Part shown: piece by piece, positions 3,265 through 64,000 of the stretch
How positions within the stretch are numbered: position 1 is the stretch's first letter
Layout: each line of letters begins with the position of its first letter
From: Terebella lapidaria
Lineage: Eukaryota > Annelida > Polychaeta > Terebellida > Terebellidae
Length of the DNA stretch: 64,000 nucleotides
Assembly: GCA_949152475.1 (NCBI GenBank)
Contig: OX424566.1
Coordinates: forward strand, 30,914,423 to 30,978,422
Reading direction: 5' to 3'
The notes under the pieces: model-generated
Told to the model about the DNA's origin: nothing
The model's database searches: none
What the model saw: the letters and a program-made list of their open reading frames with translations, nothing else
Made by a program: the position numbers and the translations under genes

Positions 3265-4341
3265 CTACCATTCGATGTCACTGAGAAGTGACTGTACACG
3301 AATCTTGTGGGATGGTTGATGGCGTTGAAGAATGGCGTTGAAGAATGATCGTAGATGGACCCGTCCCCACGGGATGACGTGCGACGCCCAGTTAAGGCGT
3401 CCAGCCAGCGACTCTAGTTGTCGACGAGTGACCCTGGTTCTGTTTCTGTGGGCTGTCAAGGTCTCGCACAGGTCGTTTATTTTGTTGTTGGCTAGGGAGA
3501 GTGTACCATGGGCGGTGTCGATCGTTATCCCAAGGAATGTGATTACTTGACTGGGATCACACAGTTTGTGCCAGCTAATCGTGAATCCTAATGTGCGCAA
3601 GAGCCCAATCAGGGTGTTGTATGCCGCCAAACACTCTTGGAAGCTTTCCCCTGCCACCAGGAAATCGTCCAAGAACACCACTGTGTGGGGGAAGCCACGG
3701 CGCGCCATCATCCTGCGAACTGACTGTGTGATTCTGTGAAAAATTGCAGGGCTTTTTCGCGCACCGAACGGCAGATGTGTATCATACAGGTAAGTAGGTG
3801 TTTCATCTGTATTGAATGTCCACTTCAGCCCCGTGATTGTGAACTGGGAGGGCCGGAGACCTACTGACCGGTAAGCCGCCTGCAAATCTACCTTTGCCAT
3901 CCACCAATTTGGCTTGATGAAGTCAAGGACGTCGTTGACACCTTGGCACGTGAATGGCTCCTTGGTTGCATGGTCATTGACGCTGCTTCCTTCGGGACGG
4001 CTGAGGTCGTGTATCAGTCTGATGCCGCCGTCTGGTTTTTCCACCGCTGACAGACCGCTGACGATGGTAGGTTTTTCCTCAGCACGGACGTACCGACCTG
4101 TCAGCATCTCCACGTGGATCTGCTCCTCCACACGCGATCTCATCGGATCATGCAGGAGAGCACTGGAGTTGTCCACTTCTACAGAAGTTGCTACCATTAT
4201 ATCTGCATTGTCCGTTATAGAAAACCCGTTTGTTAGTCCTGTTAATATAAAATCCTTGTCTTCATCATCCGCCAGCTCTGTTGCCCATACTTTGTACTGT
4301 TCAGTAAGCGGCGACCGTGCTATTGCGGCTACGCTTGAGAG
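3265..4341 (-). CDS. Ngaro-like reverse transcriptase (Pol, first part)
   Basis: The RT domain lies in the -1 frame after gag. The frame is open from the slippery site, while the first ATG is at 4195-4197. Recognisable blocks are SAVEKPDGGIRLIHDLS, MAKVDLQAAYRSVGL, LPFGARKSPAIFHRI and the catalytic FLDDFLVAG (a YxDD-box variant), then the thumb region. The frame ends with TAG at 3265-3267. The same frame reopens directly and 18 codons later enters RNase H, so this stop splits what should be one RT-RNase H polypeptide. It is either a nonsense mutation or a read-through codon. Confidence 0.85.
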   Translation of the reverse strand, partial: LSSVAAIARSPLTEQYKVWATELADDEDKDFILTGLTNGFSITDNADIMVATSVEVDNSSALLHDPMRSRVEEQIHVEMLTGRYVRAEEKPTIVSGLSAVEKPDGGIRLIHDLSRPEGSSVNDHATKEPFTCQGVNDVLDFIKPNWWMAKVDLQAAYRSVGLRPSQFTITGLKWTFNTDETPTYLYDTHLPFGARKSPAIFHRITQSVRRMMARRGFPHTVVFLDDFLVAGESFQECLAAYNTLIGLLRTLGFTISWHKLCDPSQVITFLGITIDTAHGTLSLANNKINDLCETLTAHRNRTRVTRRQLESLAGRLNWASHVIPWGRVHLRSFFNAILQRHQPSHKIRVQSLLSDIEW

Positions 4342-5468
4342 TTTTTTGGAACCGTTGGTGTTGATGACACTGTCTTATCACTGTGATGTGTGCTTGCACT
4401 ATGGTCTTTGGAATAACAGCGGGTGCACACATGGCTGAATTTGCAAAACCGCAGACTGCACCCGCCTTTGCCGTTGAATCGGCCACATATCACTTTGCCA
4501 GAAGCCGGGTCATACTTGGAGCGTTGTTGTGACGTGTTTGGGGTGTCTGAGTTTAACTGTCTGCTCGATCCGGGTTTTAGCAGCAACTGCATCAGGAAGG
4601 GGCTGTCGGCGCCCCAGGCAAACCCCATGGCTGCTTGGTTACGACGGTATTCTGCGTCGAAGGTCAGAACAGATGACCACGTGAATGACTGTGCCATGCA
4701 TGCGACTTTGATGAGGTAACTCACATAGTTCATGACGTCATCCATGCCGCTGTTATCTTCTTGCACCATCTCCCGTAGGATGCGAAGACTACCTTCCAGA
4801 AATTGCGTTTGGGTAATTTTCTCCAGCGGGATCTTTTTGTCGGCGAGCGAGAGTTCTACGTCCCCTACACGCACGGATGACACTTCCTTGGTGGCGCTGG
4901 GGGCAAACATGATAAAGTCCCGCACTTCACGACACTTCCGACTCGCCCGTGATATGCGCCTATTGCCAGTGTTAGTTGGATTGAAAAGTTCATTTTCAAA
5001 CGGATCAAAGATCTTACCGCTTTCACTCTGCTGCTTCATGTTTGCTGTATTGCTGTCATTGTGGAGCAGTGTGCATATTTTAGCAAAGTCGAGGCCATCG
5101 GTTGGAATGGCGGCGTCTTGGTCGTCTGTTGTGGTCGCTGCACGCTCCTGTAGCACTGGAGTCGGTCTGTCGCGTAGTGTTGGCGGATCCAACAGCGGTG
5201 TCGTTTTTGGCTGAACGACAGTCTTTAGCTCAGCGACCGCTCCTTGTAGTAAAAGCAGTTGAGCGGCTAGAAGTTTCTTGCCAAATAGCTTGATAATTGT
5301 ATCGTCATTCAACATTTTGCATGACTTCAAGGTCACGAAGCCGTTATCGTTCAGTAGTTTGACCGTGCTGTCCGACAGCTCGTTGTCACGCACCCACACG
5401 TCGTACTCACTGCCTGATGTTTCAACGATGATTTCACTGTCACCCGTACTTGTTGATTCGCTTGCCAT
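4329..5468 (-). CDS. Ngaro-like Gag (ORF1) with Cys/His zinc-binding C-terminus
   Basis: A 379-residue first ORF of the element. The N-terminus is acidic and Ser/Thr-rich. The C-terminal third has a Cys/His cluster (CGRFNGKGGCSLRFCKFSH, then CTRCYSKDH), like the nucleic-acid-binding Gag of Ngaro/DIRS elements. It should coat the element RNA. The first ATG (5466-5468) lies about 80 bp inside repeat A1. The stop TAG (4329-4331) overlaps the pol frame, which is in -1 relative phase. A slippery heptamer A AAA AAC sits 10 bases before the stop, so Pol is probably made as a Gag-Pol fusion. Confidence 0.8.
   Translation of the reverse strand: MASESTSTGDSEIIVETSGSEYDVWVRDNELSDSTVKLLNDNGFVTLKSCKMLNDDTIIKLFGKKLLAAQLLLLQGAVAELKTVVQPKTTPLLDPPTLRDRPTPVLQERAATTTDDQDAAIPTDGLDFAKICTLLHNDSNTANMKQQSESGKIFDPFENELFNPTNTGNRRISRASRKCREVRDFIMFAPSATKEVSSVRVGDVELSLADKKIPLEKITQTQFLEGSLRILREMVQEDNSGMDDVMNYVSYLIKVACMAQSFTWSSVLTFDAEYRRNQAAMGFAWGADSPFLMQLLLKPGSSRQLNSDTPNTSQQRSKYDPASGKVICGRFNGKGGCSLRFCKFSHVCTRCYSKDHSASTHHSDKTVSSTPTVPKNSQA
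4341..4347 (-). promoter_or_regulatory. candidate -1 ribosomal frameshift heptamer A AAA AAC at gag/pol overlap
   Basis: Read on the minus strand in the gag frame the codons are CCA AAA AAC TCT CAA GCG TAG. A AAA AAC is a canonical X XXY YYZ slippery site. A -1 slip enters exactly the frame that stays open through the RT domain. No downstream pseudoknot was worked out. Confidence 0.6.
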
Positions 5469-5550
5469 TGTGTAATAGTGTCGTTATAACATATAAAATG
5501 GTTCAATCCTGCGTCTAGAACACTTTCAATTTTCTTTGAAAGCCGCAACG

Positions 5551-10123: not shown

Positions 10124-11365
10124 TTAAAATGCGTTTAGGTTGACACTATTACAAAAAGTTTCCCAGAACATGGACATGGCAGCGTAATACCACTTCCCAC
10201 TCATGTGAACACCGTCAATACTCCAATCCACCAAAGTTCGACTGACTGACACCAAATCCAGGAAAGGATAAGCGTTCTGACTGGTGTTGAGGAAGTCATC
10301 GCGCAAAACATCGGCCATCAAATGATTCATTTTGTCGATTTTCTCAGCGGCAAGCATGTTCTCAAAAGTCGCGTTTATCCACTGTTTTCCTTGGCGTTTT
10401 GACTCGAATTCACCGAACGTTGCAAAATAAAATATCTTAGTGGTTTTGGGGATGTATAGATGCACGAGCGATTTGAAGTATTCCATATCTATCCGCAGCC
10501 GTTCCATGCCCAGATGTTTGGCATGGTTTGAAGGAAAGTAAACTATCAACACATCCGGGAATCTACCTTTCATGTAGTATCTGAACAATGTCTCTTGAGT
10601 TGTCACGGCCCATAGGTTGTCCAACGAATGAACAGTTTTCCTTCGGAGTGGAAAACGTACTTGTAGTGAGTCGTCAACTATCATTGTCATGGCAAGATGT
10701 TCGGCTGTTATGGACTTCCGTGGTTGACCCTCTCCAGCAGACACTGTACATTCGTTGACTTCACTGGCACAACCACCACAGTGTCTCTCATGTGTCTCTA
10801 ATTCCTGCTCCCATTCTATGTCACTGCGATTAACTGATTTGTAGTAAGCTGCATCGGGAATAAATCCCCCGCCTTTGATCGCTTCCGTCCGTTTCTTTGC
10901 ACAATTACCAATGTAAGCTTTCACGGTTGAGAAGTATCGCATCGCGTTGGAGTCCCCGATGGTGGTAACTGAAGAAATATCACTGTCTGCGAGACATTTC
11001 GCGACAACACTTTGTGGTATTTTGGGATATTTAAACTTACAGAATCCTGGTTGATAGTTATTAGGTGCTCTCGCCATGTTCCACTGGCCACCAGCTGGAA
11101 AATATCCATAGTCTGCCAGATACTCTCGGAAGAGTTTGAAGGTGCATGGCCGGTCACTATTTTTCTCGATTTTTGCTTTCACAGGAGCTAGATTGTCAGA
11201 GATCGGCGTGAACGAATTTCTCGATGGATATCCCGGTGGCGTATTTGGATCATTGACAGTCGACTGCTGAACGGAGTAGATGAAGAACAAGAATGCAGTG
11301 ACCAGCAGACACGCGACCAATAGAATATAACGCTTGCTGATCGAACACTTTGGTACAGGCTCCAT
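10124..11365 (-). CDS. Type II membrane protein with PC-esterase/SGNH-like (NXPE/TBL-type) motifs
   Basis: A 413-residue single-exon coding region. A short cytoplasmic N-terminus is followed by one membrane segment (about 13-31), a Pro/Ser-rich stem (about 35-70) and a luminal domain. The domain has IGDSN (136-140), the nucleophile block of SGNH/PC-esterases, and DGVH (384-387), the matching Asp/His block near the C-terminus. A Cys-rich patch (HCGGCASEVNEC) and N-glycosylation sequons at 179, 331 and 360 fit a Golgi or secretory location. It may modify glycans by O-acyl transfer or removal; the substrate is unknown. I chose the ATG at 11363-11365 because it has an ACCATGG context and lies just after a good splice acceptor (exon starts 11390), so the upstream in-frame ATG is intronic. 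A closely related paralog lies at 46974-48203. Confidence 0.75.
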   Translation of the reverse strand: MEPVPKCSISKRYILLVACLLVTAFLFFIYSVQQSTVNDPNTPPGYPSRNSFTPISDNLAPVKAKIEKNSDRPCTFKLFREYLADYGYFPAGGQWNMARAPNNYQPGFCKFKYPKIPQSVVAKCLADSDISSVTTIGDSNAMRYFSTVKAYIGNCAKKRTEAIKGGGFIPDAAYYKSVNRSDIEWEQELETHERHCGGCASEVNECTVSAGEGQPRKSITAEHLAMTMIVDDSLQVRFPLRRKTVHSLDNLWAVTTQETLFRYYMKGRFPDVLIVYFPSNHAKHLGMERLRIDMEYFKSLVHLYIPKTTKIFYFATFGEFESKRQGKQWINATFENMLAAEKIDKMNHLMADVLRDDFLNTSQNAYPFLDLVSVSRTLVDWSIDGVHMSGKWYYAAMSMFWETFCNSVNLNAF

Positions 11366-11390
11366 GGTAACGAACTTGGCCAGACGAGAT

Positions 11391-11408
11391 CTGAATACAG
11401 AAAGAATA
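11391..11408 (-). promoter_or_regulatory. 3' splice site before the coding exon of the esterase-like gene
   Basis: On the minus strand a TTCTTTCTGTATTCAG tract ends at 11391, and the exon begins at 11390, 25 bases before the ATG. The paralog has an equivalent acceptor at 48230, with a similar distance to its ATG. A noncoding leader exon upstream is implied but was not located. Confidence 0.55.
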
Positions 11409-12795
11409 ATCAAGGAATGAACTTGAATTCATTTCATTTTCCACATTGAACATCGAAACGTTATCACTGTATCTGCCTTATTGTAGAAAGGATGAGATTT
11501 GATAGCTGCAATGTATTCAATTTCCACACATTAAAAATAAACGCTATACTAGCAATTCATTCAATCTCCACAAACTATTATACTCTAAGTTATCTAGGGC
11601 TTCAGACTCCAAAAACGGCGTGATATATCTGCCTGAAGTCACCATATCCCACGAGGCAGGCTGATCGGGATATGCTGACTTCGGGCAGACCGGCCATTTG
11701 AAAGCAACTAGGGCCATGAAGGGAAGCTTTGAAAACAAAAATGTCAAAACTGTCTGAACCAGTTTTGAGGAAATGGCTGCTAAAGACAGAAATTGGCCGT
11801 TTTTGACAAAAAGCCGTTTTGACCTTTCAAAATCATTGAAGGTTAAATTCAAGGTCACCACTGAAACCGCAATATATGATATCCCATTTGAATGTGCAGT
11901 ATTACAGCTCTATTTTGAAGTGTTCTAGGAGTTTACTCCATATAGCTCTCATTGTGAATGAAAAATTGGGTGAAATTTTCAAAGCAACTGCCTTCGAATG
12001 TATGCAATCTTTTTTGTCAAAACTAAATTTTATTGAAACTCATATAATACACAACAAGGCAGCAAACCATGTGCACATTGATTTTGACTATTACAGGCCG
12101 TCCGAGTTGTCTTTTATCCGTTTTAACAAACATTTTATACCCGTTTTGTATATAAACAAACGAAATGTATCCATCAAACCCGAATGTAACCAAATGCCCA
12201 AATTGCCCTCAAGGGTCCAGATCAAGTACATTTTCCAGTTTGTAGCTGTATGTATGGTGTAGTCATGAGAAAATAGTCAGTGATATACGGTGGTGTGGGT
12301 GTTGTCAGTCCTGGCATCTTGCAATTAAATGCTTTGTTTACATTTGCGTGTGATGGATACAATTACCATATTTACGTGTGAACCGCCTGTTTAAATGAGC
12401 AACATTTCGCAAAGGACTGGATTGCAGTGTGAGTACGTCTCATTGAGTTAATTCCACATGTTTAATATAAAATATAATTACTGCCTGTTTTCGAAGACAA
12501 TTGCCTTGAAGGGGATAAGAGGGGGGGATTCTCATATGGTGATTTTTTTATGCTGAAAGTCAAAACGAATAGTGACTTGATTTGGGACGATTTTTTTTTT
12601 CGCCAACCACCGAAAATTCGTTTTTCATCGAAAATGGCCGTCATTTTGAAAAACGCGCAAATAAATATCTCCCTTTTGAAATATTTTTTAGGCATTTTGG
12701 AGCCAAAATTTCAGAAAGATTCTATCGTTATCTTCAAAGATAAAAATGTATATAGACGACGACGGACGACAGACGGGACGATATGGCAATAGGTT
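11409..12795. repeat. Dispersed repeat debris related to array family B
   Basis: The segment at about 11790-11960 (AAGGTCACC…TAGGAGTTTACTCC) is inverted relative to copies near 22.93-23.06 kb and 31.70-31.83 kb. The 12540-12790 segment (AAAATGGCCGTCATTTTG, GACGACGGACGAC) matches the body of the same family at 22.2-22.9, 30.5-30.9 and 48.4-48.7 kb. ORFs at 11544-11861, 11876-12262 and 12462-12792 fall within these repeats and are not considered genes. Confidence 0.55.
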
Positions 12796-33276: not shown

Positions 33277-33840
33277 GCAATAGTATATAAACTGCTGGAG
33301 CTGTTTGTATTTTGTCTTCAGGCACTGAGTTTAGGCACTGATTTACCGTCTCAGACATAGCGGTGCCATGGACTAGCCTACTTGTTAAATTTTGTCAAAA
33401 CCCTCGTCTCGATAGGCGGTTATGCATTTGTTTCTGTAGGTCTGTCTGCTAGCCTGTGTGTCAGCGACTCAGCGTCCATTCCTTACCTGTCTAACTCGAA
33501 GAAGCATGTCCGATCCAAAATATATAGGGATGAGCTAATTTAGTAGACTAAAAAGTCCCTGACATGCAAAACGAGATAATTCGCCTTATGTAATAATGTT
33601 GTTGTAGGATAATATAATCATAGCTATTTTTTTCACTCCAACGGCAACAAAAATACCCCATCACGAAGGTTATAAAACTTATATAAAAATATAAATTCTG
33701 CACATCACGACCACCTCCACCCCCACCCCGCCCTCTATCAAGATGATTATGATTATTATTCTTTTATTTTCATCATTACATATTTTTATCATTTTTATCA
33801 TTATCTGTCTGGCCTATAGATCTATATGGGATTTTTTTCA

Positions 33841-34977
33841 GAGAAGAATTGGCCTGCTTATGGGAGTCATCGCTTTCTGGTTTACGGATTATTATCGTCG
33901 AACAAACCGCTTTGCCAAGATCCAAAGGAGACGTCTGACAATCATGGCGACCATTTGTGCCGTTGGAACACTGACCCATAAGGCCACCTACCGCCGCAAG
34001 AAAAGCAAGATGATCACAGTACTGACAATGATAATGTCCATCGCTCACATGTCAGCAAATCTGCCACCGATACAACAAAGATTGTTTGGAAATCTTGGAA
34101 TATTGACCCCTATTGATGCATATGTTAGTTTCGTACAGCGCCCCTATGAATTTTATCGCATCACTGGAGAAACTCCAGATACCTTTGACGAAATGTTTAA
34201 CACGATCTTTGCCGATATTGCGGTACTTCCATTTCGGACATTATCACTGAAAAATGTACTTCTGGCGACACTGATTTGGTTGAAATCTTATCCAAGTTAT
34301 GCACTCTTGTCGGTTATTTTCGGAGTGAGCATGTCAACATTGACTAGGATTTTCAGTGATGTGTGGCCTATTCTGTGGCACCACTACGCTCCCCGAATCA
34401 CATGGCCTTCGATCAGGAATGGAGAGGTATGATGGGCGGATGGCCAGATCTCCCGTATGTTGTCGGTGCCATCGACGCAACATCCCACGAGATTTATATA
34501 CCAAGCAATGAGCCACAACGAAAATACTATAGTGGGCACAGGAAATAGCACTGCATGCATACACAAATTATCATTGACAATAACAAGAAAATTCGTTTTG
34601 TGCAGTCTGGCTTTTTAGGGCATATGAATGATGCACAAACTTTTCAGTACTTGCCAAGTATTGGTCCGAACCAAGCTCTACCATTCCCAAGGGACGCATG
34701 GTTGATTGGTGACAATATATATCCATACCGCCATCCTGTTCTCACTGGGTTTAGTAGAGCCCAAATGCGGAGAGATCCGCATAGACTGCAGCAGCTGGAT
34801 GACTTTAATTTATTGGTAAGGGAACACAGGGTGTATGTCGAACACGTCATATTCCATCTGAAGTGCTTCAGAGTCCTTGGTACGCTGTACAGACACCCAC
34901 GACGTAACCTAAGCCGTATTGTGGAGCTGTGTGCTCGTCTGGCTCAAAGGAGAAATGACTTGTTCAATGATGTGTAA
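33841..34977 (+). pseudogene. PIF/Harbinger DDE transposase, decayed
   Basis: The exon starts after the acceptor ending 33840; the upstream hydrophobic open frame from 33743 is intron. The domain runs from MSTLTRIFSDVWPILWHHYA, then DLPYVVGAIDATSHEI (first Asp), GHMNDAQTF, and LIGDNIYPYRHPVL (Asp) to VEHVIFHLKCFRVL (Glu), the order seen in HARBI1-type transposases. Two lesions are visible: a one-base frameshift near 34410, between the helical region and the first Asp block, and TAG at 34546-34548 after YSGHRK. With these the copy cannot make a full protein. It pairs with the divergent Myb-like gene. Confidence 0.75.
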
Positions 34978-46973: not shown

Positions 46974-48203
46974 TTAAAATGCGCTTAACCTGACACTATT
47001 ACAGAAAGTTTCCCAGAACATGGACATCACCGATTGGTACCACTGGGGTATCATGTGTACACCACCAAGACTCCAACTTTCCAGTGTTCTACTGACAGAG
47101 ACCATATCCAAGAAAGGATAAGCGTTCTGACTGGTGTTCAGGAAGTCATCGCGGAATACGTCGGCCATTAAATGATTCATTTCGTCGATTTTCTTAGCGG
47201 CAAGTATGTTCCCAAGAGTGCAGTTTGTACACTGTTTCACATTGCGTTTTGATTCGAATTCACTGAACACGGCAAAATAAAATATTTTAGTCGTTCTTGG
47301 GATGTAAAGATGCACGAGCGATTTCAAGTATTCCATATCTATACGTAGCCGTTTCATGCCCAAACGTTTGGCAAAGTTTGATGGAAAGTAAACTATCAAA
47401 ACATCCGGAAATCTTCCCTTCATGTAGTATCTGAACAATGTCTCTTAAGTTGTTATGGCCCAAAGGTTGTCCAGCGAATGAACACTTTTCCTTTTGAGTG
47501 GAAAACGCACTTGTATTGAGTCGCCAACTACCATCGTCATGACAAGATGTTCGGCTGATATGGACTTCCGCGGTTGACCATCTCCAGAAGACACTGTACA
47601 CTTACACATTTCATTGGCACAGCCACCACAGAGTCTCTCGTGTATTTCCAGTTCTTGCTCCCATTCTATATCACTGCGATTCGCTGATCTGTAGTATTCT
47701 GCATTGGGAAGGAATCCTCCGCCTTTGATCGCTTCTCTTCTTGTTGTTTTGCAATGACCAATGTAAGCTTTCACAGTTGAGAAGTATCGCATCGCGTTCG
47801 AGTCCCCGATGGTGGTAACTGAAGAGATGTTACTGTCCGCAAGACATTTCGCGACGACACTTGTTGGTATTCTAGGATATTTAAACTTACAGAAACCTGG
47901 CTGATAAGTGTTTGGTTTTCTTGTCATGTTCCACTGGCCACCAGCTGGAAAATATCCATAGTCTGACAGATAATCTCGAAAGAGTTTGAAGGTGCATGGC
48001 CTGTTACTATTCTTCTCGGTCTTCGGTTTCACAAGAGCTGGTTTGTCAGTAACCAGCGTGGACGAATCTCTCAGCGAATGTCCCGGTAGTATGTCTGGGA
48101 TAATGCCAGTTGATTTATGAACGGAGTAGACATACAAGAATGCGGCGACCAGCAAACACACGAACAGTAGAATATATCGCTTGCTGACCGATAGAGGCTC
48201 CAT
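46974..48203 (-). pseudogene. Paralog of the PC-esterase/SGNH-like membrane protein, with nonsense mutation
   Basis: Very similar to the 10124-11365 gene along its whole length: N-terminal membrane segment, stem, CTFKLFRDYLSDYGYFPAGG and IGDSNAMRYF. The frame has one TAA at 47445-47447 (codon 253), where the paralog has a Gln; the same frame then continues to the normal end at 46974. The C-terminal catalytic block reads GGVH where the paralog has DGVH, so the Asp of the Asp/His pair is also lost. A splice acceptor (CTTGCTGTCTGCAG, ending 48230) precedes the ATG, as in the paralog. Either a young pseudogene or a truncated, catalytically dead product; I favour pseudogene. Confidence 0.75.
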
Positions 48204-48301
48204 GTCACCGAACTTGGTCACAACCAAATCTGCAGACAGCAAGAGAAAAATCAAAAATTGAACTTGGTTTCAATTTCTTGATAATAATATCAATAATTAA
48301 T

Positions 48302-54820: not shown

Positions 54821-55184
54821 TGTAACGGTTTTGGGGCGTAACCAAAGGTTTCCCCTAGGTAATTCTGTTAGTGTTTTGTGATATTATGGTTAAATAACCG
54901 TTTATTAAAATGTATATGTGTTTAAAGGTTCATACGGTTCCGCATTGTTAATGTTTTAAAGGTTTTCCGTCTCGGAAATTTATGATGTCGGTAAAGCCGG
55001 AGACGGAGCCGGAACCGGAGACGGAACCGGACACGGAGCCGGAACAATGGAGTACAAAAACGTAATGACGTTATTTCCGGAAGGTCATGTGATCAGCCTC
55101 GTTTTCGGTTTAAAAGGTGACGTGTCAGCCACTGATTGGTTCTAGAGTGTTTTTAGAAATCCGGAAAATATCAGTGTTTTGGCG

Positions 55185-55238
55185 GACTATGACGTCACAA
55201 TAGGTTGGTCACGTGACGTGGGTCTCAGGTCTATAAAA
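55185..55238 (+). promoter_or_regulatory. LTR promoter: TGACGTCA, GTCACGTGA, TATAAAA
   Basis: A CRE-like ATGACGTCA near 55190, GTCACGTGAC near 55208-55218 and TATAAAA at 55232-55238; an inverted CCAAT (GATTGG) lies upstream near 55135. Transcription should begin near 55262. The same set recurs at 62347-62415 and 63596-63645. Confidence 0.65.
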
Positions 55239-55378
55239 GCCCCCGCTTCACAGCGGACGGCGGAGTTGGTGTCCTGACGTCGACCTGTGCAGACCCCTTC
55301 TCCCATAGCAGAGTACTCCCTTGTTCCGGATAGAGTCATCCAGATGATAGCAGTTAAGTCTTCCGACTGTGCACTTGG

Positions 55379-55386
55379 AAAATAAA
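55379..55386 (+). terminator. LTR polyadenylation signal AATAAA
   Basis: AATAAA about 145 bp past the TATA box places the R region between about 55262 and 55405. Confidence 0.5.
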
Positions 55387-56207
55387 CATGAAAACTTCAA
55401 CCGAGTTGTTTTTCCGTGTTCGTTAGGGAACTGGAATTTATAATAAAGTTAGTTCACCGGAAAAGAAAGTAATACGGAGTGAAGGGAGATAAGACCACAG
55501 TCGGTTAAGACCAAGTTGTAACGACGTCTTAGGGTGATCTAAGAACCCAGATCACCGAGGAAGGAGACGGAGACGGAGACGGAGGTGGAATTCAAAGGAG
55601 CAACTACAGAGGCGGTATCGGACGGAGCAGTTGCAGAGACGGGAACGAGGAAGCAGTTGCAGAGGCGGTACCGGACGACGGAGTTGCAGAGGCAGTACCT
55701 GACGGAGCGGTTGCGGTAACCGGAAGTGGGAACACTTCCGAGATACTCCATTTCAGGTGCAGTGGCAGGTTGCGGTGAGGCGGAGCCAACCGGAGCAGAT
55801 TGCAGTGCGGCGGAACCTGGCAGAGCGGTTGCAGTATTCGGAAACGGCAACATTCCCGGATTCTTTATTCCAGGCGCAGTCGCAGTTTGCAGTAAGACGG
55901 AAAACGACGGAGCTGTTGCAGTAAAGCGGTATCCCGACGGAGCAGTTGCAGTACCCGGAGACGGAAACGCCTCCGGATCCTTACTTTACAGGTGCAGTTG
56001 CAGATTAGCAGTCGGACAACGGTTAAGAGGTCCATTCCAGACCACGCTACCAACCTTAGAGACTTCTAGCCGGAGTTCAACCGTACAGCAGTAGCAGTTT
56101 CCCGGAGTTTTACCGTTTCAGCTCCGGTTAAATATCAAATCACCCACCTCCCTAGAAAACCGGTTCATCAAGACGTCACAGAAGGGTGCAAACCCGTTAC
56201 AACTTTT

Positions 56208-56225
56208 TGGTGGCAGCGGTGGGAT
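56208..56225 (+). promoter_or_regulatory. Primer-binding site, tRNA-Leu
   Basis: TGGTGGCAGCGGTGGGAT is complementary to the 3' end of animal tRNA-Leu(AAG/TAG), including its CCA tail. It starts six bases after the LTR end. Confidence 0.7.
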
Positions 56226-56235
56226 CATCTGCAGT

Positions 56236-57492
56236 ATGACTACTAGACGGGGCAAATTGGCGGAACAGCAGCTGAAGGCAGCCGTGTCGGACACGGAGCA
56301 GCCTGTAGGAGCAGTAGGAGCTGAGCCGTTGCAGATGCCGGTTGCGGAAAAGGAAGCAGTTCGTCCTGCCGAGCGAAAGCTGTTGCAGCCGGAAATGCAG
56401 AAAGCAGTTGCAGAAGAGCCCCTTCGGGTTCCTCAAGGAGTACAGCCTGCAGAGCAGTTAGCAGAGGCGGAAATTAACTTTCCGGACCAGGCTGGCGATC
56501 GGGAACCGGATGCGGAACCGGAAGGCGGAGAGAATTTAGTCGACAACCTGACCAGATTATTGGCGACCCAAATGGAGGTGTTTCAGCAGCACCTGGCAGT
56601 AACTGGAAAGCAGCAGCAGGCAGAAGCAGTACAACAACCAGCACCAAGGGCTGGAGTAGCCAGATTAATGACGTACGACGGAACTGATCCGTGGCCGGAG
56701 TATGAGGCTCACCTCCTTGAATACGCTCGGTACTACCGTTGGACAGCAGAGGAAAAGGCGCTGAACTTATGTGTCAGTCTGAGGGGTAACGCTCGCAGCA
56801 TACTACTGGATCTGTCCGCGGAGCAGAGACGCAGCTTTGATACGGTTGTGGCGGCATTAAAACAGCAGTTTTGTCCGGGAGAGAAAACATTTGTTTTCCA
56901 GGCGGAATTGCAGACACGGAAATTGCAGCCGGAGGAGGAGCTGTCCGAGCTGGCCAGAGACATACGGAGCAAGACGCGGCTAGCTTACCCAAAAGCAGAT
57001 CCGGCAACAACAGAAGTGCTCATGAAGATGCATTTCTGCAACAGTCTGACTAACCGAGATATGCGGTTGTCGGTATTGAAAAGCCACCCGGAAACGCTGT
57101 CGCAGGCCCTGGCTTTCGCTACCGAGTATGAGAGTATTATGAAGACGGATAACAGCAGACCAGCGGAGCGACACCGGACGAGGCAGCTGAACACGGAGTC
57201 GGAGTGGAGCCAGCAGGTGAACGAATTGCGGAAGCAAGCCGAGCAGACTCAGCAGCAGTTGGCGGATCTGATGACTCAGGTCAAGGAAGCGGTTAGCCGG
57301 CAGCAGCAGCAGCGCAGTTCCCGAGCGGATTTAGAATGCTTCAACTGTGGCCGGAAAGGGCATTTTGCCCGAGACTGTAGGCAGCCGAAGCAGCAGCAGC
57401 AGCGGCGTCAACCACAACAGCAGCAGCCGCAGCAGCAGCAGCAGCAACAACTGCAGCAGCCACGACAGCAGCAGCAGCAGCCGGAAAACTAG
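56236..57492 (+). CDS. Ty3/gypsy Gag
   Basis: 418 residues. The N-terminal third is Ala/Glu/Gln-rich. The capsid-like core (about 140-300: MTYDGTDPWPEYEAHLLEYA, ALNLCVSLRGNARSILLDLS, ELARDIRSKTRLAYP) matches the retrotransposon Gag family. A CCHC knuckle, CFNCGRKGHFARDC, lies at about 370-383, followed by a poly-Gln tail encoded by CAG repeats. The ATG is the first after the LTR and sits just past the primer site. The stop TAG at 57490-57492 is followed by pol in the -1 frame. Immediately before it are the codons GAA AAC; GGAAAAC could allow slippage but is not a canonical heptamer. Confidence 0.9.
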   Translation: MTTRRGKLAEQQLKAAVSDTEQPVGAVGAEPLQMPVAEKEAVRPAERKLLQPEMQKAVAEEPLRVPQGVQPAEQLAEAEINFPDQAGDREPDAEPEGGENLVDNLTRLLATQMEVFQQHLAVTGKQQQAEAVQQPAPRAGVARLMTYDGTDPWPEYEAHLLEYARYYRWTAEEKALNLCVSLRGNARSILLDLSAEQRRSFDTVVAALKQQFCPGEKTFVFQAELQTRKLQPEEELSELARDIRSKTRLAYPKADPATTEVLMKMHFCNSLTNRDMRLSVLKSHPETLSQALAFATEYESIMKTDNSRPAERHRTRQLNTESEWSQQVNELRKQAEQTQQQLADLMTQVKEAVSRQQQQRSSRADLECFNCGRKGHFARDCRQPKQQQQRRQPQQQQPQQQQQQQLQQPRQQQQQPEN

Positions 57493-57554
57493 AGCGGGTC
57501 GCGGAAAAGGGGAAATCCGGGACCCGGAAGAGAGGACACCCCCATAACCGGCAG

Positions 57555-60500
57555 GTGGTTCACGGACCCGGTCCCAGGGGCGAGGTGGGCATGTGTGTGA
57601 CAGCCAGAGTATGCGGAGAGCCAGTAACGCTGATAATCGACACCGGCAGCACTGTCACAATGCTCAACCTACAAACCTGGGAACGGATCCGGAAACCCGG
57701 AATGAAGCTGAAGCGGTCGCCGATTCGTCTTTCGATGGTCGACGGAAGTAACATACGGACGCATGGCCGGAAAGAACTCCCACTCAACATCGCAGGAGTA
57801 GCTGAGACCGTGACGTTCGAGATTGCAGACTGTGAAGACGAAGGAATACTGGGAATGGATTTCATCCGTTCCCGGATATCCGGCATAAATTTCGACCGAA
57901 TGACCATGCAGATGGGCAGCCAGGAGGTGTTCCTCACCATGTTCGAGCAGACCAGGGAGCCGTTTCCGATCAACGCTGTAGCAGATTACCAAATTCCGCC
58001 GGAAACGGAACAGCTGATAATAGGACAAGCAGAGAGTGTCCGTGAAGCAGAAGGAGTACTAGAAATGCCGCAGGAGCCTACTGAGAAAAGACCTTGGCTG
58101 ATCGGGAGAACTTTATCCCGGATAAAGCAAGGAACAGTCCCGGTTCGAGTGATCAACGTGATGGCAGAGCCGGTAATCATCAAGAAAGGAGCGCAGTTGG
58201 CGACGATGACCACCTTAGCAGCCGGTTGCAGCGTTGTGCCGTTGGCGGAGCGGAGCAGGAAGGTGCAGATTTCCACGGAGTCGGAGGCCGGGCGGAATTG
58301 GAGCGGGTACGAGAAGCTGCGGCAGTTAGCAGAGCAGACCCAGGATGCAGTGCCGAGTCATTTCCGCGAGAGAGTAACCGACCTCCTATTTCGGAATAAG
58401 CCGACCTTCAGTAATGATACCAGAGAACTGGGGCAGACCAACGAGGTACAACATCAAATAAACACGGGCAGTCACCGGCCGATTAAGCAGCCAACCAGAC
58501 GAATTCCGCCAGACAAGAGAGAGCTGGTGAGCAGTCTGATTCAGGAGATGAAAGACAAGAACGTCATTGAAGAAAGTAGCAGTCCGTGGGCTTCCCCGAT
58601 TGTCCTCGTGAAGAAAAAGGATGGGACCACCCGGTTCTGTGTCGATTACCGGCGGTTAAATGCAGTCACGGAGAAAGATGCTTATCCGTTGCCGAGAATA
58701 GACGACACCATAGCAGCCTGTGCAGACGCCAAATGGTTCTCCACTCTCGACCTGACCAGTGGCTACTGGCAGGTCGGGATGGATGAAGACGCCCGGAAAA
58801 AGTCGGCCTTCTGTGTTCCTGGCGGCCTTTACCAGTTCAAAGTAATGAGTTTCGGCTTGTGCAATGCTCCGGGTACGTTCGAGCGGTTGATGGAGAAGGT
58901 GCTAGGCGGATTGTCCTGGAAGACCTGCCTCATATATCTGGACGACATCATAGTCTACAGCAAGACCCTGGAGGATCACATCCGTGATCTTCAGGAGGTG
59001 TTCAGCAAGCTGAGAGAGGCAGACCTAAAAGTCAAACCGTCAAAATGCAAGTTCTTCCAGCCGGAGGTGTCTTTCCTGGGTCACATAGTCGGCAGAGACG
59101 GTATCCGCACCAACCCGGCAAAAACGGAGGCAGTACGGAAGTGGCGGACACCCACCAACCTGACGGAGCTGCGCAGTTTTCTGGGACTTTGCTCCTATTA
59201 CCGGAAGTTCGTGCCGAAGTTCTCCGAGATTGCAGCGCCGCTGAATCACTTGACGGAAAAAGGGGTGCCGTTCCGGTGGCAGACGGAGCAAGAGCAGGCA
59301 TTTGCAGAGCTGAAGAACCGCCTAATATCGGCACCGATACTCGGGTACCCAAGGGAGCAAGGCCGATATATCCTGGACACGGACGCCAGTGACACCGGGC
59401 TGGGAGCAGTACTGTCACAGAAGCAGGGCAACCAGGAGCGGGTGATAACCTACTTGAGCCGCAGCCTAACCAAAGAAGAACGGAGATACTGTGTCACCCG
59501 GAAGGAGCTCCTGGCGGTTGTGTTTGCGGTACAGAAGAATAAGCAGTACTTGCTGGGACGACACTTCCTTCTTCGCACGGATCATGGCAGTCTTACCTGG
59601 CTTATGAATTTCAAGGAGCCCCAGGGGCAGGTAGCCCGGTGGATTGAGCTCCTGAGTGAGTTTCATTTCGACATCGAACATCGTCCGGGGCGAATCCATA
59701 ATAATGCGGATGCCTTGTCCAGATCCCCATGCAGCCAATGCGGAAAAATCGACTGGAAACAAGCCAAGATAGACGCCTGGAACTACGGAGAAAGGATCCG
59801 GCAGACACGAAGTGAAGAAACTCCTCAGCCCAAGCCAAGGAAGGGGGGACGCCGGAAGCGATCACGGAGATCGGGCGGAGAAGCAGAACTGACGGAGGAA
59901 GCAGTCCCAAGGAAGGCGGTTGCAGTAGCGGAGGCAGCAGCGTCCCGGAAGCCGGTTGCGGTTGCAGTGACGGAGGAAGCAGCGTCCCGGAAGCCGGTTG
60001 CGGTTGCGGTGACGGAGAAAGCAGCGTCCCGGAAGCCGGTTGCGGTTGCGGTGACGGAGAAAGCAGCGTCCCGGAAGCCGGTTGCGGTTGCGGTGACGGA
60101 GAAGGCAGTTCCAGGAAAAGCGGATGCGGTTGCAGAGCAGATTAGGCTGGCGGAAAATGCGGACCAGGATACTGTGCTGGGGCAGAAATATCGACCGGAT
60201 GAGTTGCGGAGAATGCAGCAAGCCGAACCTTGGTACCCACTGGTGACGTCGCTGATCGACGGGAGCGGTACAGCTGGCAGTGCAGACTTTTCCAGCATGA
60301 GCAGTGAGGAGAAAGTGCTGTACGGGATGCGGAAGACCTTGCTGAAAGTCGACGGAGTAGTCTACCGGAAATGGAAAACGGCAGAAGGAACCAGCCGAAT
60401 GCAGTTAATAACCCCGAAGGAGCTGAGACAGGAGATTTTCCATCTGGCCCATCAGAGCCGGACGGGAGGACACCTCGGAAGCAGAAGGATGGCGGCTAGC

Positions 60501-61598
60501 ATTCGGAGGCGGTATTTCTGGCCGGCTATGATGCGGGACATAAAGCAGTGGGTGCTGAGCTGTGACGAATGTGCGTCAAGAAGTATGCAGAACTTGAAAC
60601 GATCTCCGATGCAGAAATACCGGGTTGGAGCGCCCATGGAGAGGGTGGCAATGGACGTGATGGGTCCGTTACCTAAATCCACCCGGGGGAACCGGTACAT
60701 CTTAGTAATCGGCGATTACTTCACCAAGTGGGTAGAGGCTTACCCGATGCCGAATCAGGAAGCGGTGACGGTTGCGGACATATTCGTCAACCAGTTTGCA
60801 GCGCGGTACGGCATCCCGATGGAGATCCACACCGACCAAGGCAGAAATTTCGAGTCCGACTTGCTGAGAAATGTTTGCAGAATCCTGGGGATTCACAAGA
60901 CACGGACAACCGCTTTCCGACCTCAGTCGGACGGTTTCATTGAGCGATTCAACCGGACGCTGCAGCAGATCTTGAGCCTGTACGTAAGCGAGCGGCAGAC
61001 CAACTGGGATCAGCTAGTACTGTTGGCGATGGCAGCTTACCGGAGTACCCCGCAGGAGACAACCGGGCAGAGTCCCAACTTGCTGATGCTGGGCAGAGAA
61101 GTCAACACTCCGGTAGAGTTACTGATTGGCAGACCGCCGGGAGAATCAACAGCAGAAGTAACAGAGTATGGCAGTCAGCTCCGGGAGCGACTAGAAGTGG
61201 TATACAAGGTGGTTCGAGCGAAATCTGGCAGAGAAATGGAACGGCAGAAGAAGCTGTACGACCGGAGGAAGGTCGACAATCAGTTCCAGCCAGGAGACCG
61301 AGTGTGGATGGCGGTCAAAACACGGAAGAAGGGCAAGGCACCCAAGTTGCAGAGGAAGTGGAGCGGTCCAAAGCTAGTGCTGAGCAGATTTACCGACGTG
61401 ACCTACGAGATTGCAGAGAGTGAAACTCGGCAGAAGGTGGTTCACTTCGATTTGCTGAAACCGTATAATGGTGTCAAGCATCCGAGATGGATGAAGCGGA
61501 GAATGGCAGATTCCTGGAGGCAGACGGAGCCGCCGAAGCAGAGTAGTGTTCCGGAGACGGAACAGACGGTCTCTGAGTCGGATACAGACTCGGAGTAA
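57555..61598 (+). CDS. Ty3/gypsy Pol (protease, RT, RNase H, integrase)
   Basis: 1,347 residues counted from the GTG at 57555. The frame is open further upstream past the end of gag, so Pol is likely a -1 Gag-Pol fusion. Protease: LIIDTGSTV (DTG at 29-31) and ILGMDF (98-103). RT: FCVDYRRLNAVT, FSTLDLTSGYWQV and catalytic YLDD (461-464). RNase H: LDTDASDTGLGAVLS from about 607. Integrase: HHCC zinc domain (His963, then CDEC), Asp1034, Asp1094 (HTDQG) and Glu1130 (DGFIERFN), giving the D-35-E spacing. A C-terminal GPF/Y-like region and acidic tail follow; no chromodomain. Between RNase H and integrase lies an unusual Arg/Ala/Val-rich repeat segment. No disabling mutation is visible. Confidence 0.95.
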   Translation: MVHGPGPRGEVGMCVTARVCGEPVTLIIDTGSTVTMLNLQTWERIRKPGMKLKRSPIRLSMVDGSNIRTHGRKELPLNIAGVAETVTFEIADCEDEGILGMDFIRSRISGINFDRMTMQMGSQEVFLTMFEQTREPFPINAVADYQIPPETEQLIIGQAESVREAEGVLEMPQEPTEKRPWLIGRTLSRIKQGTVPVRVINVMAEPVIIKKGAQLATMTTLAAGCSVVPLAERSRKVQISTESEAGRNWSGYEKLRQLAEQTQDAVPSHFRERVTDLLFRNKPTFSNDTRELGQTNEVQHQINTGSHRPIKQPTRRIPPDKRELVSSLIQEMKDKNVIEESSSPWASPIVLVKKKDGTTRFCVDYRRLNAVTEKDAYPLPRIDDTIAACADAKWFSTLDLTSGYWQVGMDEDARKKSAFCVPGGLYQFKVMSFGLCNAPGTFERLMEKVLGGLSWKTCLIYLDDIIVYSKTLEDHIRDLQEVFSKLREADLKVKPSKCKFFQPEVSFLGHIVGRDGIRTNPAKTEAVRKWRTPTNLTELRSFLGLCSYYRKFVPKFSEIAAPLNHLTEKGVPFRWQTEQEQAFAELKNRLISAPILGYPREQGRYILDTDASDTGLGAVLSQKQGNQERVITYLSRSLTKEERRYCVTRKELLAVVFAVQKNKQYLLGRHFLLRTDHGSLTWLMNFKEPQGQVARWIELLSEFHFDIEHRPGRIHNNADALSRSPCSQCGKIDWKQAKIDAWNYGERIRQTRSEETPQPKPRKGGRRKRSRRSGGEAELTEEAVPRKAVAVAEAAASRKPVAVAVTEEAASRKPVAVAVTEKAASRKPVAVAVTEKAASRKPVAVAVTEKAVPGKADAVAEQIRLAENADQDTVLGQKYRPDELRRMQQAEPWYPLVTSLIDGSGTAGSADFSSMSSEEKVLYGMRKTLLKVDGVVYRKWKTAEGTSRMQLITPKELRQEIFHLAHQSRTGGHLGSRRMAASIRRRYFWPAMMRDIKQWVLSCDECASRSMQNLKRSPMQKYRVGAPMERVAMDVMGPLPKSTRGNRYILVIGDYFTKWVEAYPMPNQEAVTVADIFVNQFAARYGIPMEIHTDQGRNFESDLLRNVCRILGIHKTRTTAFRPQSDGFIERFNRTLQQILSLYVSERQTNWDQLVLLAMAAYRSTPQETTGQSPNLLMLGREVNTPVELLIGRPPGESTAEVTEYGSQLRERLEVVYKVVRAKSGREMERQKKLYDRRKVDNQFQPGDRVWMAVKTRKKGKAPKLQRKWSGPKLVLSRFTDVTYEIAESETRQKVVHFDLLKPYNGVKHPRWMKRRMADSWRQTEPPKQSSVPETEQTVSESDTDSE
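59925..60125 (+). repeat. 42 bp tandem repeat inside pol (14-residue unit)
   Basis: About four and a half in-frame copies encoding AASRKPVAVAVTEK-type units, between RNase H and the integrase zinc domain. The copies are nearly identical and length changes would stay in frame. Confidence 0.85.
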
Positions 61599-62346
61599 AG
61601 CCGCAGAGGACGAAGAAATATGAGAAGACGGAGTGAGCTGTAGAGCAGGAGAAGGAGATAGCTGAGACCCTGGTAAAACGTTGAGTTCCGGCAAAGAGCG
61701 ACCGCAAGAAGTTGGAACAGTGAGCAAGTGCTGGTTCCGGAAACAGGGCGGAGAAAGGAAGCAGAGCGGAAAGCGGTGCAGAGACCGGATAGAGACATCC
61801 TAGAGGTTCTGACTGGTTTGAGCGCATAGTCAACCAGTCCAGGGTAGCGGCCAGGGGTCCAGAAGAACCTAGGTTAGCGGTCTAGTATCTCCAGAGAAGC
61901 AGCTACACGTCTTCCGTATTCAGAGAATTAAGACGGAAAAGTTTTCCGGCTGTGGACATCCAACCGGAGTTTCCACTTAGCAGAGACAGTAAACCGACTG
62001 CAGATTGACAGAAACGGAGAAACATCACCCCAGATAGGAAGGCGCCTCCTTCTGGACAGAATGTATGCAGTTTCCAGTGTCGACAAGCAGTAATACCAGT
62101 GAGCAGATATGCAGTTGACGAAGCAGTACAGATGGCAGAAACGCCCAACTTGCAGTCTAGATGTTCGTCTGAGAGGCAGATTCAACTGGCTGAGACTCTA
62201 TTCAACCCTCCTGATGGCAGAGATACTTCAAAATTGCAGATACTTCGCTCGAAGAAGCAGTTGAAAGGGAGCCGGAAAAACCCGGAGAAGCCGGTTGAGC
62301 CGGAGACGGACACCTCTCGGTTAACGGTTGAGTTTTTGCATAATTG
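61599..62346 (+). other. Noncoding region after pol
   Basis: About 750 bp of the same CGGA/GCAG-rich composition with no long plus-strand ORF (the 62099-62398 frame overlaps the next promoter). No polyadenylation signal was seen. It may hold regulatory or packaging sequences. Confidence 0.5.
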
Positions 62347-62415
62347 TGACGTCACTCCTGAGGCAGCCAATCAGCGTGGAGCTTTTCAAGTCACGTGAGC
62401 AGAAAGGGTATAAAA
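62347..62415 (+). promoter_or_regulatory. Internal promoter 2: TGACGTCA, CCAAT, GTCACGTGA, TATAAAA
   Basis: TGACGTCA (62347-62354), CCAAT (62367-62371), GTCACGTGA (62390-62398) and TATAAAA (62409-62415) in order. A start near 62440 would give a leader of about 220 bases with no ATG before 62661, the start of the zinc-finger ORF. Confidence 0.65.
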
Positions 62416-62660
62416 GGGCCTTGAAATCGGGCTCTGAGAGCAGTTGAAGAGCAGACCTCGAGCTGTGCACATCGCTGTTAAAGTTTGGCGGAATCGAATC
62501 AAGTCCAGCATTTTCCGGCAGCGGCAGATTTTGCAGTGAAAAACGACTAAGTGTTTCCCGGAAGACCACCAGTCCGGAGAAGCGGTGCAGAAGCGGTGCA
62601 GAAGCGGTGCAGTAAAAGCGGTGCAGTAGATCGACAATTTCAGTTTCCCGGCCTTCCGGA

Positions 62661-63362
62661 ATGGCCTACTCGGCGTTCCTTGAAAGACAAGATCGCGGCC
62701 GGAGCAGAGATTGGGCAAGCCCTGAGCCACTGGATTATAGCCGGCTGTGTAAGCGGTGTGACCGGATGTTCGAGAGTGCGACGGACAGGAGACGGCATGT
62801 GTGCCCAGCCCAGAGATATCATTGCTGTTTGTGTGCCTTCTACGGCAACCGGGCGAACGACCTTAGGCGGCATCTCCGGGAGATGCACGGCTGGAAGTAC
62901 CCTTCCGGGAACCGTCCTCCTCAGGACGAGGCAACCCTCAACCATGTGGGAACCTTTGATTCGGCCTGGCGGGGAACAGCTACGCAGTCCCGGCGAAGGC
63001 GGTTCCGGAGATTCTGCACACAGTCACCTAGGGAGAATCCAGTTCCGGAAACTTATGCGGACCAGCTTCCGTTTGGACCTGACTGGGATGCCGGAGTAGC
63101 CGCTCCCATCGAACAACCAGAACCGATCGATCCTCCGGTTTGGGTTCCGGATCCGCAGGGCTGTCTTAGGGCAGCGGAAGACTCATCTCCGGAAGATTGG
63201 GAGCCGGAACTGGTGATATCGAAGGAACCAGAAGAGGAAGTTCAGCCGGTGGAAGACTGGGAGGCAGAGATCCGGGTGTGGGAATATCAATCACCTTCTC
63301 CCACCTCGGACACGGAATCGGAGACTTCCGAGTACCACACCGCGGAAGAGGAGGAACCCTGA
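62661..63362 (+). CDS. Retroelement accessory protein with two C2H2/C2HC zinc fingers and acidic tail
   Basis: 233 residues. Finger 1 (about 31-50) is CKRCDRMFESATDRRRHVC, C-x2-C-x12-H ending with Cys (C2HC-like). Finger 2 (about 56-76), CLCAFYGNRANDLRRHLREM then H, is C-x2-C-x12-H-x4-H. An Arg-rich stretch (SRRRRFRRF, about 110) could be a nuclear signal. The C-terminal half is Pro/Glu/Asp-rich, ending TAEEEEP, like an acidic activation or interaction region. The ATG is the first after the internal promoter. Codon and base composition match gag and pol of the same element. It occupies the place where env would lie in a retrovirus-like element but has no signal peptide or membrane segment. 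Function unknown; sequence-specific DNA or RNA binding is a plausible inference. Confidence 0.7.
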   Translation: MAYSAFLERQDRGRSRDWASPEPLDYSRLCKRCDRMFESATDRRRHVCPAQRYHCCLCAFYGNRANDLRRHLREMHGWKYPSGNRPPQDEATLNHVGTFDSAWRGTATQSRRRRFRRFCTQSPRENPVPETYADQLPFGPDWDAGVAAPIEQPEPIDPPVWVPDPQGCLRAAEDSSPEDWEPELVISKEPEEEVQPVEDWEAEIRVWEYQSPSPTSDTESETSEYHTAEEEEP

Positions 63363-63513
63363 GGCGGATGGCAGAGTAGCGGATGGCGGAGTAGCGGTTG
63401 ACGGAGGCGGTTGGCAGAGTAGCAGTGGACGGAGGCGGATGGCGGAGTAGCAGTAGACGGAGGCGGTTGGCAGAGACGGAGAAGAAGAAGCGGTGGCAGT
63501 TAGCAACAACAAC

Positions 63514-63516
63514 ACG

Positions 63517-63545
<29 letters not shown>
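63514..63545 (+). repeat. A-run (about 32 bases)
   Basis: A long poly-A tract between the first zinc-finger ORF and promoter 3. It could be a fossil poly-A tail from an inserted cDNA or slippage of an A-rich stretch. Confidence 0.7.
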
Positions 63546-63548
<3 letters not shown>

Positions 63549-63595
63549 TATTTATCCAAGAAGACCACCAGGAGGAGTTGCAGTTTGCTGAGCAG

Positions 63596-63645
63596 CCAAT
63601 CACCAAGCAGATAAGCCAGTCACGTGACTTCCAGAGACTATAAAA
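63596..63645 (+). promoter_or_regulatory. Internal promoter 3: CCAAT, GTCACGTGAC, TATAAAA
   Basis: CCAAT (63596-63600), GTCACGTGAC (63619-63628) and TATAAAA (63639-63645), the same order and similar spacing as promoter 2 and the LTR. The expected start is near 63670, and the next ATG is 63725. Confidence 0.65.
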
Positions 63646-63724
63646 GGGGGCAGATAGCTGTTACCGGATGCAGAAGGCAGTTTGCTGTAGCTGAGTCAAC
63701 ATCGACACAAAGCAGAGAATCAGA

Positions 63725-64000
63725 ATGCCGAAAGTAAAGACAACACCCCGCAAGCCTCGCCCTCACCGGTGTGGAGACTGCAACCTAGAGTTCAAGAGCA
63801 AGCACACGTTGCTCCGGCATGTCACGGAGCAGCACACGAGCGAAGTCACCGTCTTCGCCTGTCCGCAGTGTGACCATTGGAGCAGACGGAAAGAGGGGAC
63901 ACAGAAGCATCTGCAGTCCCGACACGCAATGGACGCGAACCCGATTCGACTAAGGGTGGGCAGAGAGCAGTTTGAGGAGAAAAGCCTCCGGTCCAAGATG
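63725..64000 (+). CDS. C2H2 zinc-finger protein, N-terminal part (runs off window)
   Basis: 92 codons, open at the window end, so missing from simple ORF lists. After a basic N-terminus (MPKVKTTPRKPRPHR) come two canonical fingers: CGDCNLEFKSKHTLLRHVTE then QH, and CPQCDHWSRRKEGTQKHLQS then RH, both C-x2-C-x12-H-x4-H. The ATG lies about 55 bases after the predicted start of promoter 3. Composition matches the gypsy element. It resembles the 62661 protein in layout (fingers near the N-terminus) but the sequences differ, so they may be old duplicates. The rest of the protein and the 3' LTR are outside the window. Confidence 0.75.
   Translation, partial: MPKVKTTPRKPRPHRCGDCNLEFKSKHTLLRHVTEQHTSEVTVFACPQCDHWSRRKEGTQKHLQSRHAMDANPIRLRVGREQFEEKSLRSKM

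Follow-up and report, generated by a model that had tools for sequence, protein, structure and literature searches.

Extra open reading frames (ORFs) have been reported in long terminal repeat (LTR) retrotransposons of rotifers, planarians, plants, insects, and C. elegans (PMC5408684, PMC6431247, PMC2774666, PMC7264820, PMC11952523, PMC10309623; here and below, statements on published work refer to the accessible portions of each source). In foamy viruses, the Tas protein is expressed at a basal level from an internal promoter and then activates both the internal and the LTR promoters; its activation domain belongs to the acidic class, and an internal promoter for a regulator has been termed unique to foamy viruses (PMC7390438, PMC3798896). 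Here we analyze a 64,000-nucleotide stretch of the genome of the annelid Terebella lapidaria (the window; C13:30914423-30978422), which carries a Ty3/gypsy-type LTR retrotransposon with two C2H2 zinc-finger genes, ZF1 and ZF2, downstream of pol, each preceded by a promoter-like module. We put at roughly 0.5 the probability that this element encodes two extra nuclear proteins from two LTR-like internal RNA polymerase II promoters, and that these proteins would feed back on the LTR. What the DNA itself shows is a gene order repeated across many copies, open frames, substitution patterns of purifying selection on both genes, recurring modules, zinc fingers, and ZF1 halves of opposite charge; we infer that the modules are probably real promoters.

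The likeness to foamy viruses is that 3' of pol there is a promoter, or promoter-like module, serving a small protein that combines a DNA-binding and an acidic domain (PMC7390438, PMC3798896). The T. lapidaria element differs in having two internal modules, C2H2 fingers, and a Ty3-type pol, the Tas sequence itself standing outside this comparison. The internal and LTR promoters of foamy viruses are little related (PMC7390438), whereas the modules of the element resemble its LTR promoter. No env domain was detected by Pfam in ZF1, ZF2, or the ORFs at 62099-62398 and 62551-63099, where a divergent env is possible. Because no env domain was found and pol is of the Ty3 type, the element is not a foamy virus.

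Bdelloid rotifer LTR retrotransposons likewise carry an extra ORF (ORF3) after pol, but the ORF3 types are env, GDSL, DEDDy, coiled-coil, and transmembrane, and neither "zinc finger" nor "promoter" is mentioned in the accessible portion of that report (PMC5408684). Cer1, an LTR retrotransposon of C. elegans, also encodes an additional nuclear protein, CERV, which differs in serving RNA export and in having a possible C4 finger; "internal promoter" is not mentioned in the portion of the source available (PMC10309623). Planarian Burro, plant Ogre, and insect sORF2 elements also possess extra ORFs, sORF2 lying after pol in some Lepidoptera (PMC6431247, PMC11952523), but these encode other domains: the zinc-finger term is absent from the accessible text of PMC6431247, and sORF2 is a fusogen-like membrane protein. 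Assignment to the Troyka superfamily was rejected, the CG..CG ends and 3-bp duplication of that group (PMC12440569) contrasting with the TG..CA ends and 4-bp GTAT duplication found here.

A literature search, outside which most subscription papers fell, found no LTR retrotransposon described with post-pol C2H2 genes that have their own internal promoters. Post-pol ORFs are already known in LTR retrotransposons, and the search suggests that the ZF1/ZF2 pair with its internal modules is apparently undescribed; the original prediction had named it a candidate for an undescribed system. Scans of viral contigs with ZF1, pol, and a pol alignment gave pattern matches, none of which was confirmed. A search of genome contigs gave seven pol relatives in bins of metagenome-assembled genomes (MAGs), presumably eukaryotic contamination. 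One Ty3/gypsy-like contig binned in a Calditrichota MAG, whose ends repeat 91 nt, has a 1051-residue ORF after pol (L001:6915-10070). As a gene of the same kind this ORF was rejected: BLASTP gave E values, each calculated for a single comparison, of 0.94 with ZF1 and 0.011 with the ZF2 fragment, and there was no Pfam match.

A complete Ty3/gypsy-type element encloses both zinc-finger genes

The full element spans 54821 to window-equivalent position 67238 (12,418 bp), its right part being read from sequence that extends past the window (L016, whose first 656 bases are identical to the last 656 of the window). All its features lie on the + strand, in the order 5' LTR, gag, intact pol, ZF1 (233 residues), ZF2 (616 residues), polypurine tract, and 3' LTR. 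The original prediction, made from the window alone, had placed two zinc-finger ORFs (62661-63362 and from 63725 onward) 3' of an intact pol, with no 3' LTR between pol and these genes and a matching one to be sought further right. Both ORFs are present, the second proving to be 616 residues long, and the 3' LTR was found 276 bp past ZF2. The 5' LTR (54821-56201; 1381 bp, TGTAACGG...CCGTTACA) and the 3' LTR (window-equivalent 65852-67238, L016 2508-3894) are 98.77% identical, with 11 mismatches and one gap over 1387 aligned bases. The LTR termini are TG..CA, a 4-bp target duplication flanks the element (GTAT directly before TGTAACGG on the left, TGTTACA followed by GTAT on the right), and a purine run, AAGGAAGGGGGAG, which forms the polypurine tract, lies directly 5' of the 3' LTR. 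Because the 3' LTR, the polypurine tract, and the duplication are found beyond ZF2, the element is complete at both ends and both zinc-finger genes are internal to it.

The primer binding site (56207-56224, TTGGTGGCAGCGGTGGGA; TTGGTGGCAGCGG is present once on the + strand of the window) is complementary to what we take to be the 3' end of tRNA-Leu; no tRNA gene was found in the 64-kb window. Gag (56236-57492) has 418 residues and one CCHC knuckle by Pfam. Pol (57555-61598; 1347 residues) contains, in Pfam order, protease, reverse transcriptase, RNase H, H2C2, and integrase core domains, and its best matches among solved structures were 7q5b (Ty3-G Gag-Pol, 401.9 bits) and 4ol8 (311.4 bits), followed by 8r0s (220.5 bits); we take 7q5b and 4ol8 both to be Ty3 structures. 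With this domain order, a Ty3-closest reverse transcriptase, and the LTR, primer binding site, polypurine tract, and short target duplication all present, the element is a Ty3/gypsy-type (Metaviridae) LTR retrotransposon. A 42-bp tandem repeat of VAVAVTEKAASRKP-like units (59874-60125) lies between RNase H and integrase.

Base composition also ties the zinc-finger region to the element, as had been predicted. In an order-3 Markov comparison of the element (54821-61598) with the host sequence (1-54820), all eight overlapping 500-bp segments from 61599 to 63848 were element-like, as against 0 of 109 host segments; in a leave-out control, 12 of 13 element segments scored positive, the first (LTR) being negative.

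The zinc-finger proteins ZF1 and ZF2

ZF1 (62661-63362, + strand; 233 residues) has one degenerate and one canonical C2H2 finger. Its residues 1-125, which hold the fingers and an RRRRFRR stretch, have a net charge of +12, and its acidic C-terminal half, residues 126-233, has a net charge of -28 and contains five tryptophans. ZF2 (63725-64000 and on to window-equivalent 65575, + strand; 616 residues, the first 92 in the window) has two canonical C2H2 fingers, followed by an S/R/D-rich middle with RSRSRS and six ADSR units and then by a C-terminal part for which Pfam gave no match. The motif C-x2-C-x12-H-x3..5-H occurs three times in the six frames of the 64-kb window, once in ZF1 and twice in ZF2. 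When 61599-64000 was simulated 2000 times (first-order, read in the three forward frames), at least one such motif arose in 2 simulations and an ATG-initiated ORF of at least 233 codons in 3. Searches of both proteins with hidden Markov models, proposed in the original prediction, recovered C2H2 matches in Pfam, at scores under the gathering thresholds.

A protein search with ZF1 gave one relative, P0001 (177 residues, 73% identity, 67% of the query; longest contig 868 bp), in which the acidic tail is kept (net -29). P0001 may stem from the same or a near species, since 133 of 145 residues are identical to the ZF1 of copy L058 and 123 of 157 to the window ZF1. P0122, the sole addition obtained with alignment A1, was rejected as a ZF1 relative (E 2.7).

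The fingers, the basic stretch, and the acidic tryptophan-containing tail suggest that ZF1 would be a DNA-binding transcriptional activator, and two fingers with an RS-rich region point to ZF2 as a putative second nuclear nucleic-acid-binding factor. The RSRSRS and six ADSR repeats would also fit a nuclear RNA-processing partner, and one or both proteins might then act on the RNA of the element, in nuclear export, stabilization, or packaging of unspliced genomic RNA, in the manner of CERV for Cer1. We think this unlikely: the basic and acidic halves of ZF1 resemble a transcription factor, and 54821-64000 contains no GTAAGT donor, although weaker donors are present, so that the retention of intron-bearing RNA poses no obvious problem.

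The best PDB match of ZF2 was CTCF (8ssq, 65.7 bits summed over several fingers, 31.1 for the best single stretch). Among two-finger chains, 2ct1 (CTCF) scored 36.9 bits versus 31.0 for Helios with the 92-residue query, and 31.5 versus 25.5 with the full protein. Such fingers could belong to proteins that bind host DNA and thereby guide integration, attach the element to chromatin, or counteract silencing by the host, a role to which we assign a low probability; the CTCF margin is small, about 6 bits among PDB chains only, and we claim no CTCF ancestry for ZF2. Single-sequence structure prediction of the ZF2 fragment gave a mean predicted local distance difference test score of 60 and no usable model. 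Of the three roles originally offered for the two proteins, promoter control, integration targeting, and anti-silencing, the first appears favored by the module architecture and the acidic half of ZF1.

Gene order is maintained in other copies

The source genome (761.6 Mb, 438 contigs) was searched with the ZF1 DNA sequence, and the best 40 of 513 first-look candidates were scored, a selection that favors ZF1-like copies. At least 40 full-length matches, including the window copy, were found at 98-100% identity, together with one partial match. When the 276-bp part of ZF2 that falls inside the window was used as the query, the best 40 of 510 candidates were scored, and all 40 were full length. 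We then compared 38 stretches around 39 other full-length ZF1 matches, each reaching from -1500 to +4650 bp of the ZF1 start, with one longer stretch holding a double copy.

All 38 stretches show the same succession: the end of pol, the full spacer, module 1, and ZF1. None of the 38 has an LTR or element end in the interval corresponding to 61598-62340, an arrangement that would have spoken against the predicted gene content, and none of the stretches, drawn from the best 40 of 513 candidates, contains ZF1 without the retroelement; such cases are possible elsewhere. ZF2 is full length in 33 stretches, partial in L023, and unmatched in L038, L040, L048, and L051. A 3' LTR match covering at least 0.3 of the LTR length is present in 32, and full ZF2 together with a 3' LTR in 30. 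Within the copies compared, neither of the two arrangements named in advance as refuting the prediction was seen. Five copies from the ZF2 search were absent from the ZF1 list, and ZF1 and module 2 precede ZF2 in all five; the best ZF1 piece in these copies is 90.6-97.4% identical, with two pieces in L058.

Two copies (C17, C16) align with P0005 in one piece across the 42-bp repeat region of pol, and the other 35 scored do not. The copies with one-piece pol, L060 and L061, share the element tail: L060 has ZF1 (89.6% amino acid identity) and a ZF2 with an internal gap, and L061 keeps module 1 and the end of ZF2, with a deletion between them. Repeated ZF1, ZF2, or pol-end-to-ZF1 segments were observed in L019, L020, L038, and L054.

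Both zinc-finger genes show patterns of purifying selection

Variants among the window copy and the 38 stretches were divided into those shared by at least two copies and singletons, with stop variants kept out of the nonsynonymous counts. Singletons serve as the control because most arose after insertion, while shared variants have passed through active elements. The nonsynonymous/synonymous counts were 16/20 for shared and 52/17 for single variants in ZF1 (Fisher p = 0.0025), 25/74 and 123/107 in ZF2 (p = 2.1e-6), and 4/11 and 31/23 in the last 444 bp of pol, used as a positive control (p = 0.044). In ZF1 the singleton ratio was 3.06, close to the value of 2.48 that random change would give. 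Between the window ZF1 and five diverged open copies (L056-L060), the ratio of nonsynonymous to synonymous substitution rates (dN/dS) is 0.26-0.42; L055, in which the ZF1 frame is shifted near its end, lies outside this range at 0.74.

Frames without a stop or shift were found for ZF1 in 36 of 38 copies and for the pol end in 31 of 36; the ZF1 figure is an upper bound, since the stretches were picked by best ZF1 match. A second count, made in a control run, gave 14 of 38 open ZF1 frames, and we believe that stop-codon trimming may have clipped local alignments. The substitution patterns indicate purifying selection on both zinc-finger genes.

LTR elements do capture host sequence (PMC6431247, PMC7264820), and the two genes could be host passengers, functionless for the element. 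We regard this as very improbable in view of the substitution patterns, the element-like composition, and the constant position of ZF1, which follows pol in each of the 38 stretches and precedes ZF2 in five more copies. Gene order and substitution patterns instead lend support to the earlier proposal that the element acquired or evolved nuclear DNA-binding accessory proteins.

Promoter-like modules recur in the LTR and before each zinc-finger gene

The LTR contains a promoter-like module (55190-55238, + strand) with TGACGTCA at 55190, CACGTG at 55210, and TATAAAA at 55232. Internal module 1 (62347-62415, +), which follows the spacer 3' of pol (61599-62340, +; complete in all 38 fetched stretches), has TGACGTCA at 62347, CCAAT at 62367, CACGTG at 62392, and TATAAAA at 62409. 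Internal module 2 (63596-63645, +) has CCAAT at 63596, CACGTG at 63621, and TATAAAA at 63639. TATAAAA occurs three times in 54821-64000, once in the LTR and once 5' of each zinc-finger gene. From start to start, CACGTG and TATAAAA are 22 bp apart in the LTR, 17 bp in module 1, and 18 bp in module 2, and CCAAT stands 25 bp 5' of CACGTG in both internal modules. On both strands of the 64-kb window, CACGTG-N(8-18)-TATAAA is found only three times, in the LTR, before ZF1, and before ZF2; first-order simulations of the element contained one in 4 of 3000 runs and two in none. The version that includes CCAAT occurs twice in the window and in 0 of 3000 simulations.

Promoter likeness was measured by local alignment of 150-bp segments against 1000 shuffles and 109 other element segments. 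The LTR scored 40 with module 1, and module 1 scored 50 with module 2, both above every shuffle and every other segment. Among the 38 stretches, the CACGTG/TATAAA pair is kept 5' of ZF1 in 37, and 33 have a pair 700-1150 bp downstream of where ZF1 starts (farther on in L054). Fast-changing 28-bp repeats and an A tract lie 3' of ZF1 (63364-63545, +), and the gap to module 2 differs among copies. Measured against the window copy, the mismatch rate of the module 1 core is 0.0096 versus 0.0213 for the spacer, and its TATAAAA heptamer has no mismatch in the 38 stretches; the module 2 core, at 0.0208, is lower than the adjacent upstream spacer at 0.0534. The 252 nt that separate the TATA of module 1 from the start of ZF1 contain no ATG, and the one ATG before ZF2 (63668) lies about where transcription would start, given the usual distance from a TATA box.

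The stretch 62129-62395, upstream of and into module 1, has 5 base differences from L060 in 88 codons, compared with 47 in 228 for ZF1. It is calmer than the ZF1 coding gene and may be a regulatory stretch or a small gene. The ORF at 62099-62398 has a codon-like score and an uninterrupted frame in 37 of 38 copies; we do not claim it as a gene because, of the variants shared among copies, 4 are nonsynonymous and 1 is synonymous. The A tract after ZF1 raised the possibility of a poly(A)-tailed retrocopy, which was set aside since ZF1 has a promoter-like module 5' of it and there is no AATAAA close by.

The zinc-finger genes might instead be real genes of the element whose messages arise by splicing of LTR transcripts, in which case the CACGTG/TATA modules would be chance occurrences or relics. 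Bdelloid LTR-element ORF3s are said to come from spliced messages (PMC5408684). The modules, however, recur and persist among copies, and 54821-64000 lacks GTAAGT, although weaker donors exist; we consider this origin improbable.

Other features of the window

On the - strand, ORFs at 1742-5483 encode tyrosine recombinase-like, reverse transcriptase, and RNase H-like proteins, the recombinase and RNase H being under the Pfam cut-off; we assume them to be DIRS-like. Two further - strand ORF sets (10124-11428 and 46974-48269, the second split into two ORFs) have translations that look alike by eye and no Pfam match at 0.001, and are presumably NXPE-like. An ORF at 33695-34432 (+) with an HTH_Tnp_4 domain is likely a piece of a DDE transposase.

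Discussion

We propose that modules 1 and 2, built like the LTR promoter, would drive ZF1 and ZF2, respectively, and that both proteins would in turn regulate the internal promoters and that of the LTR. Early zinc-finger expression might then set the output of genomic RNA, by analogy with Tas in foamy viruses. Tentatively, and at somewhat under even odds, the element would have evolved this self-regulating circuit independently of foamy viruses, with two zinc-finger regulators, internal promoters copied from or converging on that of the LTR, and an LTR controlled in trans.

Several results weigh against feedback through internal promoters. The first ZF1 finger is degenerate, and two fingers confer little DNA specificity. 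Neither protein reaches a Pfam gathering score, ZF1 attaining at best 18.0 of 27 bits and the ZF2 fragment 24.9 of 27.5 (zf-Di19) and 22.2 of 27 (zf-C2H2_4), with full ZF2 lower. The ZF2 frame is open in 15 of 32 copies (the 33 full-length copies without L054, which lies outside the ZF2 segment), and ZF2 has three shared stop variants that were excluded from the counts. Singleton nonsynonymous/synonymous ratios fall under the neutral expectation in ZF2 (1.15 versus 2.34) and at the pol end (1.35 versus 2.46), and singletons are for that reason an unclean neutral control. The alignment of the LTR with module 2 scores 30, which beats all shuffles, but 2 of the 109 other segments of the element score as high. 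The 11 bases around the module 1 CACGTG are more variable (0.031) than the spacer (0.021), because one flanking base differs in 12 copies, and the mismatch rate of the module 2 core is not below that of the first spacer. CACGTG, CCAAT, and TATA are common host sites, and the modules could simply follow host promoter syntax. Finally, the related element L001 has a large post-pol ORF without such fingers or module.

If the proposed circuit is real, transcriptional self-control would have arisen outside the retroviruses, in a Ty3/gypsy element that is present in many copies, conserves two zinc-finger genes, and has internal promoters resembling that of its LTR. The element would also be a source of zinc-finger proteins that may target the very element encoding them.

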